Source: Bacteroidia bacterium (GTDB lineage Bacteria > Bacteroidota > Bacteroidia > Flavobacteriales > Flavobacteriaceae). From it: a DNA stretch of 64,000 bases. The position numbers and the translations under genes were made by a program. Location: assembly GCA_030428865.1 (NCBI GenBank), contig JAUIEK010000006.1, positions 1 through 64,000 of the forward strand, written 5' to 3'. This document shows, one piece after another, positions 36,209 through 38,382 of the stretch. The notes under the pieces are model-generated. The model saw nothing but the letters and a program-made list of their open reading frames with translations. It was not told the DNA's origin and did not search any database. Numbering within the stretch: the first letter of the stretch is position 1; every line of letters starts with the position of its first letter.

Positions 36209-37402
36209 TTATTCAGTTGAATATTTATTTACCATTCTCTTAGTACGTTCAAAATCATCTATATCATAACTTATAACTGATTGAACTATTTTCCCTTCTT
36301 TATTAATTACATAAACCGTAGGATAACGTCTTACTTTAAAAACATCAGCTATATCATCTCCATTAGGTATATGAACATAAGTAAATCCTTTGTTTCTAAA
36401 ATACTGCTCGGCTTTGTTTTTGTCTTTCTCTTTTGCAGAAATACCGATAATAACAACATCACTTTTATCTTTATACATTTTCTGAAGTTCTTCAAATTTT
36501 GGCATAGAAACTCTACACGGGCCACACCAAGTGCCCCAAAAATCAATCACAACTACTTTTCCTTTCAACGATTCTGAAGAAAACTTCTTGCCTGTTTGCG
36601 AAACCCCAGACCATTTGGGAGTTATTGTATTTACCTTAAGTAAATCTTTTCCGTAAATATCTTCTTGTGTTTCTTGGTAATTTCTTTCTTTTGAAACAGT
36701 TGTATTCTTTTTTAATAAGCTAAAAAAAGAATCATTGTAAGACTTATTCAATTGTTTTACTGTTATTGTTTTATAAACAAAATTGTCTGTATAAAAAGCG
36801 GGAAACATTGTTTTTTTGTCAATCCAAAAAATATCTTCTGCTCTAAGATCTGACTTAACCGTATCTCCATTCTTTTTTATACGCATTAAACCTCCAAGAT
36901 AACTCTTAACCTTATAATGTGGTTTACCTTCTATTAATTCTTTGCTTACATATTCAAATTTTGAAAACATTGGTGTCTTAGGCGCATATGGTTTACTTTC
37001 TGAAAAAGGTCTAATGTGTAACATGAATAAATATTGTTGCAATAAATTCATTACAGTTTTTCGAGCCGGTTTATTATACTTTTTAATACCACTTTTTCCT
37101 TTTTCAAACTGAAAAGATTTGCCATCATAAGAAAAAGCAAATGTTTTTAATACGCCTCTTTCTTTTATAGTACCCGTTGCTTTCATTAATGCATTACCAA
37201 AGCCTACATCTTTTACATTTGCCTTTTGCTGAAAAATAGTGGCTTTAATAGTAGGGAATCCGTATTTTCCTTTAGCATTTTTTTGATGTATTGTATATTC
37301 AATTGATTCTACCTGTTCACAAGCTTTGACAAACTCACCCATTTTGTTTTGCCCAAATAGGTTAGTTGATATAAGCAGACCAACTATTAATATTTTTTTC
37401 AT
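36209..37402 (-). CDS. TlpA-like thioredoxin protein under BlaI-type operators
   Basis: 397 residues when started at ATG 37402 (MKKILIVGLLISTNLFGQ, a signal peptide); the track start 37429 adds nine residues. The first ~230 residues are a beta-rich region resembling LolA-like or DUF-type envelope domains. The C-terminal ~140 form a TlpA thioredoxin with DFWGTWCGPCRVSMPKFEE (CGPC active site) and cis-proline RYPTVYVI. Likely a periplasmic disulfide reductase. The promoter is overlaid by two BlaI/MecI-type operators, see the next entries. Confidence 0.85.
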   Translation of the reverse strand: MKKILIVGLLISTNLFGQNKMGEFVKACEQVESIEYTIHQKNAKGKYGFPTIKATIFQQKANVKDVGFGNALMKATGTIKERGVLKTFAFSYDGKSFQFEKGKSGIKKYNKPARKTVMNLLQQYLFMLHIRPFSESKPYAPKTPMFSKFEYVSKELIEGKPHYKVKSYLGGLMRIKKNGDTVKSDLRAEDIFWIDKKTMFPAFYTDNFVYKTITVKQLNKSYNDSFFSLLKKNTTVSKERNYQETQEDIYGKDLLKVNTITPKWSGVSQTGKKFSSESLKGKVVVIDFWGTWCGPCRVSMPKFEELQKMYKDKSDVVIIGISAKEKDKNKAEQYFRNKGFTYVHIPNGDDIADVFKVRRYPTVYVINKEGKIVQSVISYDIDDFERTKRMVNKYSTE

Positions 37403-37453
37403 TTTATTTTTTGTGTTTTGTTTAAACATATTTTTTAGATTAAAAAATTTATC

Positions 37454-37467
37454 TCTACAAATGTAGA
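37454..37467. promoter_or_regulatory. BlaI/MecI-type operator 1, over the -10
   Basis: TCTACAAATGTAGA contains the TACAnnTGTA core of BlaI/MecI/CopY-type operators. On the minus strand the same bases supply TACATTTG (37458-37465), a perfect -10 for the TlpA-like gene. A repressor bound here would block the promoter. Confidence 0.6.
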
Positions 37468-37479
37468 TTTTATTTTTAT

Positions 37480-37493
37480 TCTACACATGTAGA
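37480..37493. promoter_or_regulatory. BlaI/MecI-type operator 2, over the -33
   Basis: TCTACACATGTAGA is a second TACAnnTGTA site, perfectly symmetrical, centred 26 bp from operator 1 and lying over the -33 region of the minus-strand promoter. Two such sites are the usual layout of BlaI/MecI-controlled promoters. No blaI gene is in the window. Confidence 0.6.
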
Positions 37494-37638
37494 GAATGTT
37501 AAAATTCTTCAAAAAAAATTTGGGAGGTAATCTATATAAGCAAATCGCTTTTTTTAGTTACAGAATTATAAGGAGAAAAGGTGTATTCTTATTTTTTAAT
37601 ATGTCAACAAAAAACTATTTATATTATTAATTAATCTG

Positions 37639-38010
37639 TTATTTTAAATAGTACTCAACATAAGAGATAGGCTTCTTTTTTGTACTATATATTGCTGCCA
37701 TTAAATCACCCCACGATCTTAAGGTAAACTCCCCTATTTTTCCATCTGAAAATAGCGGTACTTTTTTTCTATATTGGTGATCGTCTGCAGAGATATGAAG
37801 ATTGTTAGACTCTATTTCTTTTTTTAATGCATTTAGATACGGATATGCCTCCACATCATGAATATCGAGATAATCTTGCCAAACCATTGTAGTTGGCTCT
37901 TCTTTTTTATGAACTAAATTAGAGTTAAAACAACCACCTGAATCACCAATAGGAGCTTCTTCTCTACCACTACCAAACTCAATCCAGTCGATTACTTTTA
38001 ATTCATCCAT
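37639..38010 (-). CDS. Hypothetical protein next to the tRNA operon
   Basis: 123 residues, no signal peptide and no membrane helix; I do not recognise a family. It has an aromatic- and acid-rich composition (MVWQDYLDIHDVEAYPYLNAL) with a single Cys in GGCF. Its normal ATG start (38010) and intact frame support a real gene. It lies between the TlpA-like gene and a tRNA terminator. Nearby sequence 37494-37638 has no further gene. Confidence 0.6.
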   Translation of the reverse strand: MDELKVIDWIEFGSGREEAPIGDSGGCFNSNLVHKKEEPTTMVWQDYLDIHDVEAYPYLNALKKEIESNNLHISADDHQYRKKVPLFSDGKIGEFTLRSWGDLMAAIYSTKKKPISYVEYYLK

Positions 38011-38092
38011 CTAACGAATTATTCTTTAGCATTTTCTACATAAATATAACTCAAACCATTAAATAGTGGCAACTCTCATGGTAGTAAAAAAC

Positions 38093-38128
38093 AAAAAAGC
38101 TTGATAATCATTTGATTATCAAGCTTTA
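38093..38128 (-). terminator. Terminator of the tRNA operon
   Basis: AAAGCTTGATAATCA/TGATTATCAAGCTTT perfect 15-bp stem with a 2-nt loop, followed on the minus strand by a T run. It lies just downstream of tRNA-Arg. Confidence 0.85.
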
Positions 38129-38130
38129 TG

Positions 38131-38204
38131 TGATCGCGATAGGATTCGAACCTATGACCGTCTGCTTAGAAGGCAGATGCTCTATCCAGCTGAGCTACGC
38201 GACC
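38131..38204 (-). tRNA. tRNA-Arg (TCT)
   Basis: A 74-nt cloverleaf on the minus strand. The acceptor GGTCGCG pairs with CGCGATC, the T arm reads GGTTCGAATCC, and the anticodon loop CTTCTAA gives TCT. CCA is not encoded. Last of three tRNAs in the operon. Confidence 0.95.
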
Positions 38205-38210
38205 ATTTTG

Positions 38211-38285
38211 TCGGGGTGGCAGGATTCGAACCTGCGACCTCCTGCTCCCAAAGCAGGCGCGATGACCGGGCTACGCTACACCCCG
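38211..38285 (-). tRNA. tRNA-Pro (TGG)
   Basis: A 75-nt cloverleaf on the minus strand. The acceptor CGGGGTG pairs with CACCCCG, and the anticodon loop TTTGGGA gives TGG. CCA is not encoded. Middle gene of the operon. Confidence 0.95.
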
Positions 38286-38299
38286 AGTTGCAACTTAAG

Positions 38300-38382
38300 C
38301 GGAGAGACCGGGATTCGAACCCGGGCATCGAAAAACGATGACAGCTTAGCAGGCTGCTGCATTACCACTCTGCCACCTCTCC
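38300..38382 (-). tRNA. tRNA-Ser (GCT)
   Basis: About 83 nt on the minus strand with a long variable arm (TCATCG-TTTTT-CGATG-like stem), as expected for tRNA-Ser. The acceptor GGAGAGG pairs with TCTCTCC, and the anticodon loop CTGCTAA gives GCT. First gene of the operon. Confidence 0.93.

Follow-up and report, generated by a model that had tools for sequence, protein, structure and literature searches.

Two palindromes with a TACA/TGTA core lie ahead of the gene for a TlpA-like protein in a flavobacterial genome. The first-pass annotation had read them as BlaI/MecI-type operators, with the repressor gene elsewhere, and had noted that such repressors normally act through BlaR1. BlaI/M56 gene pairs are usually labelled beta-lactam resistance regulators; the locus raises the question of which repressor would act on a TlpA gene, and in response to what signal. 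The window (the whole stretch of 64,000 nucleotides analysed) is contig C3:1-64000 of a genome of 2.26 Mb that comprises 9 contigs, C1, C3 and C4 among them, and is labelled G000. Its TAnnTTTG-type promoters and Psychroserpens, the nearest named record, indicate Flavobacteriaceae. The regulon of this genome was surveyed by pattern searches; the comparison sets were 99 relatives, 400 family genomes, a GTDB-wide scan and plasmids, and dinucleotide shuffles of the window (n = 100) were used as a control.

The tlpA gene and the palindromes over its promoter

The features of the locus are as follows:

36209..37402, minus strand: tlpA; the open reading frame is extendable to 37429
36635-37327, minus strand: unclassified N-terminal domain of TlpA, about 230 aa
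About 37453, minus strand: predicted transcription start, set from the -7 box
37454..37467, no strand assigned: proximal operator, TCTACAAATGTAGA (TCTACATTTGTAGA when read on the minus strand), roughly -1 to -14 of the predicted transcript
37458..37465, minus strand: -7 box TACATTTG, a perfect TAnnTTTG, entirely within the proximal operator
37480..37493, no strand assigned: distal operator, TCTACACATGTAGA (minus strand TCTACATGTGTAGA), about -27 to -40 of the predicted transcript
37484..37487, minus strand: TGTG as a degenerate -33 element with a spacer of 18, lying within the distal operator

The start codon of tlpA is likely that at 37402 (MKKIL...) rather than the longer start at 37429, because MKKIL... 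aligns with the paralog tlpA2 (contig C1, 42% identical). The C-terminal domain of the product is a TlpA/ResA thioredoxin domain with WCGPC: Redoxin, AhpC-TSA and Thioredoxin_8 all score above their cut-offs, and in Foldseek the model matches ResA/TlpA, which bears out the earlier naming of the target as a TlpA-type thioredoxin-like protein. From its hydrophobic N-terminus, the protein is predicted to be secreted or periplasmic. It shares the C-terminal WCGPC and the thioredoxin fold with TlpA, ResA and DsbE but differs from them by its extra N-terminal domain, which has no Pfam match and is rare, very few of the genomes searched having it. The model of this domain is weak (mean pLDDT 58) and the listed fold matches cover the thioredoxin part alone; therefore, we claim no fold for it, and its LolA-like look is only an impression.

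At E 1e-40, the only tlpA orthologs found in the 99 relatives and the 400 family genomes (four candidates per genome being scored in the latter) were this genome's own two copies. With no ortholog in the congeners searched, the tlpA sites cannot be traced inside the genus. Scanning all of GTDB for two peptide patterns gave one related locus, in Psychroserpens, and an N-domain profile search of the 400 family genomes returned one further gene, in G182, which belongs to a different genus and whose product is 30% identical to TlpA. Plasmids gave partial, low-identity tlpA matches only, chiefly to the thioredoxin part. Upstream of tlpA, a 123-aa open reading frame without Pfam match (37639-38010) lies between tlpA and a cluster of tRNA-Arg, tRNA-Pro and tRNA-Ser at 38130-38382; this region (window 37639-38382) is possibly an insertion spot for tlpA. 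The 37639-38010 gene is also on the minus strand, and thus the tlpA sites can serve only tlpA, the strand and target gene originally assigned to them.

The two sites are near-identical 14-base palindromes, confirmed at 37454-37467 and 37480-37493, and are the only exact matches to TCTACANNTGTAGA in the whole 2.26 Mb genome. Exact 14-mer palindromes were never seen in 100 dinucleotide shuffles of the window (mean 0.00 per shuffle). The 10-base core TACANNTGTA occurs 5 times in the window, where 1.08 would be expected, and a count of 5 is reached in 1 of 100 shuffles; on its own, the core is weak evidence, being only mildly enriched in the window. The signal at the tlpA sites rests on their pairing and on the 14-base arms.

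In Flavobacterium psychrophilum, the TAnnTTTG consensus box is located at -12 to -5 (PMC9723704); on this basis, the tlpA transcript would begin near 37453 and the proximal operator would span -14 to -1. The minus-strand promoter box that the first-pass annotation placed inside one palindrome is indeed there, with a perfect consensus, in the proximal site. The companion claim, that the distal site overlies the -33 element, holds for position but not for quality: the tlpA element is TGTG with a spacer of 18, whereas those blaI-A promoters that were examined have TTTG or CTTG with spacers of 19-21.

BlaI-A and its predicted operators

The absence of any BlaI-family gene had been named in advance as refuting the operator reading; the genome holds two such genes (PF03965), blaI-A and blaI-B, each followed by an M56 gene. 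As predicted, the repressor gene proposed here lies elsewhere, on another contig:

G000:C4:57638-58006: blaI-A, followed by an M56 protease gene that overlaps its end

The PF03965 winged-helix Penicillinase_R domain extends over the whole of BlaI-A (96 bits versus a cut-off of 22.6), and the best solved match is MecI (1okr, E 8.7e-11). Less than 60 bases ahead of its start codon, the blaI-A promoter carries the pair TCTACCCTTGTAGA/TCTATACTTGTAGA, both copies being imperfect on the TACA side (TACC, TATA). Dyads of the TACA...TGTA type lie over the gene's own promoter here and in congeners, where the best 30 BlaI-A orthologs are 77-86% identical, the promoters mostly read TCTAC..TTGTAGA-N13-15-TCTAY..TTGTAGA, and the -7 box falls within the proximal copy. 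Counting this genome, 34 of the 99 relatives have a strict operator pair; judged by position, all listed pairs are in blaI-A promoters, the exceptions being that of tlpA and one in G012. The assignment of the tlpA sites to the BlaI/MecI type is thus supported by the same kind of pair in a putative repressor's own, conserved promoter.

We scored the window with a weight matrix built from 33 blaI-A-type pairs of other genomes, all of one genus and with this genome excluded. The proximal tlpA site (24.3 bits) and the distal one (17.7 bits) rank first and second in the window; by chance, a genome would be expected to contain about 9e-6 pairs of this quality. From centre to centre, the two tlpA sites are 26 apart, versus 27-29 in the 33 blaI-A promoters. 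The first-pass annotation had asked for other pairs of this type in the genome; beyond tlpA, only the blaI-A pair is credible. A looser search returned these two and three further places without a palindromic core, which look like chance. Single one-mismatch operator copies elsewhere were discarded, nearly all being intragenic and unpaired; only the blaI-A pair directly precedes a gene start.

Outside the genus, the G182 tlpA homolog has TCTACAAATATAGA-N6-TCTATATTTGTAGA immediately ahead of its start codon, with a centre spacing of 20, and no blaI gene within 10 kb around it. Two distant members of the rare TlpA family are thus preceded by a blaI-A-type pair.

A proposed switch and its signal

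Together, the palindromes at tlpA very probably constitute a tandem BlaI-A operator, through which BlaI-A would repress tlpA in trans until relieved by its M56 partner. That partner is a 407-aa protein (PF05569, 55.5 bits) with the HELTH zinc motif kept. The bond cut in BlaI and MecI is Asn-Phe; both BlaI-A and BlaI-B have Ser-Phe at the MecI Asn-Phe position. In Staphylococcus aureus, BlaR1 senses the beta-lactam through a penicillin-binding domain and cuts BlaI (PMC7593790), and from this analogy we infer that BlaI-A blocks the promoter and that the M56 partner relieves the block. BlaI-A dimers would occupy both tlpA sites, covering the -7 box and the -33 region, and would block RNA polymerase as at blaI-A's own promoter. 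An extracytoplasmic signal would activate the membrane-bound M56 protease, which would then cut BlaI-A, switching on tlpA and blaI-A/M56 together. Against this reading, the tlpA spacing lies outside 27-29, the -33 element is weak, the motif is drawn from one genus, and the tlpA sites are supported only by the distant G182 gene, where the spacing is different again.

As in the staphylococcal and Bacillus BlaI/MecI-BlaR1/MecR1 systems, the repressor is a PF03965 winged-helix protein, TACA/TGTA-type dyads lie over the promoter, and the repressor gene, which apparently controls itself, has an M56 metalloprotease gene as its partner. The present system differs from them in that it would act in trans, on a TlpA-like redox protein encoded on another contig rather than on an adjacent blaZ or mecA, that the operator arms are TCTAC...GTAGA and that the promoter has the TAnnTTTG form of Bacteroidota.

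A further difference concerns the sensor. No penicillin-binding (class D-like) sensor was found in BlaI-A's M56 protein or in four longer orthologs, M56 being the sole confident domain, and against BlaR1 the protein scores 40 bits where the cut-off is 400. Induction by cell-wall antibiotics through BlaR1 acylation is therefore unsupported. Because the M56 protein has no recognisable penicillin-binding sensor, a beta-lactam is not the expected signal, and because the target is a TlpA, envelope or thiol stress is more likely. It is improbable that the M56 protein or a partner senses beta-lactams after all, with TlpA protecting or repairing cell-wall enzymes. The family resemblance to BlaI/BlaR1 speaks for it, as does the exceptional strict pair in G012 (C16, L136:6219-7705), which precedes a PF00144 serine hydrolase gene (-33 ATTG, spacer 20) with a class C beta-lactamase-like product; however, this product reaches only 96 bits against the class C cut-off of 415, and no penicillin-binding domain was found in the 407-aa M56 protein or confidently in its longer orthologs.

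A second BlaI circuit and the remaining alternatives

The other BlaI gene of this genome has its own operator and its own TlpA paralog:

C1:106644-106982: blaI-B, in an operon with tlpA2 and an M56 gene
G000:C1, L039:7304-10307: operon tlpA2-blaI-B-M56, with AACTA-N6-TAGTT sites in front

In this operon, tlpA2 is directly upstream of blaI-B, the M56 product carries TonB_C, and AACTA-N6-TAGTT is present twice in the promoter. In 25 genomes, two or three copies of this element surround the -7 box that serves the blaI-B operon. In most congeners, blaI-B is the first gene after the operators, while in G052 and G054 an unrelated gene occupies the place that tlpA2 has here, as if the slot between operators and blaI-B accepted exchangeable cargo.

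Could the tlpA sites bind BlaI-B instead, both tlpA genes answering to this one repressor? The 42% identity of the paralogs and the position of tlpA2 in the blaI-B operon would fit, and so would the Psychroserpens tlpA relative, which has one AACTA-N6-TAGTT site. But the element typical of BlaI-B promoters is nowhere in the window, and the two repressors share 39% identity and have different residues in the presumed recognition helix (TTTVATLLKR versus YNTVSTIIRI, by comparison with MecI). Thus, with the BlaI-B operator different and absent from the window, BlaI-A is the specific candidate for the tlpA sites, and we consider control by BlaI-B quite unlikely.

Psychroserpens blaI-A has TCTACATTTGTAGA, its blaI-B has two AACTA-N6-TAGTT sites, and a further BlaI gene there also has such elements. 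With both circuits present in Psychroserpens, neither operator code is confined to one genus, and genes of the TlpA type appear under each of them. Two tandem TlpA relatives lie behind a single AACTA-N6-TAGTT site in Psychroserpens (L110:5855-8503), clustered with serine hydrolase-like genes.

A CopY-type copper box, with tlpA under a copper-responsive repressor, is less probable still. CopY and CopR belong to the same PF03965 family and share the operator core TACANNTGTA, and the window sites fit most of the common core of CopY operators (RNYKACANNTGTMRNY; PMC7253601). CopY is, however, defined by a C-terminal CXC metal-binding motif (PMC7253601), which is missing from both BlaI proteins, neither of which contains any cysteine. 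They score 46 and 55 bits against the CopY_TcrY cut-off of 122, no copper-export gene is among the operator pairs of this genome, and each repressor gene is followed by an M56 gene, which fits control by proteolysis, an M56 partner replacing metal sensing. Finally, that the palindromes arose by chance and serve no regulator is hardly credible: the mild enrichment of the 10-base core and the intragenic position of nearly all single copies would allow it, but neither the expected number of pairs nor the shuffles do, nor does the recurrence of such a pair at blaI-A and, in another genus, ahead of a tlpA homolog.

The BlaI-A reading adds to the known BlaI/M56 switch a remote redox target, a different sensor and two operator codes. 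In the literature, we came across no paper on what BlaI/M56 controls in Bacteroidota; all that is noted of the BlaI-family proteins of Bizionia is that they lack the CopY copper site (PMC11213822). The surprise is moderated by a Mycobacterium BlaI that affects cell division, so that effects beyond beta-lactam resistance are known in principle (PMC12565901). Extending the reading to flavobacteria at large, we lean slightly towards at least two insulated BlaI/M56 circuits (TCTAC...GTAGA and AACTA-N6-TAGTT) without a beta-lactam sensor, each with one tlpA paralog here, the module acting as a general envelope/thiol-stress switch with exchangeable cargo. With a BlaI/M56 pair tied by its sequence to an operator, a remote target and an M56 protein without a penicillin sensor, the question of the signal in Bacteroidota becomes testable, and the two operator codes make it simple to predict, in other flavobacteria, which genes each circuit controls. 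The codes also caution against taking BlaI/M56 genes in metagenomes for resistance determinants. A further BlaI/M56 pair (L147:5302-6620, G049:C1), whose repressor is 66% identical to BlaI-A, has imperfect TCTA-N6-TAGA sites and sits among His-rich proteins that are metal-related in look.
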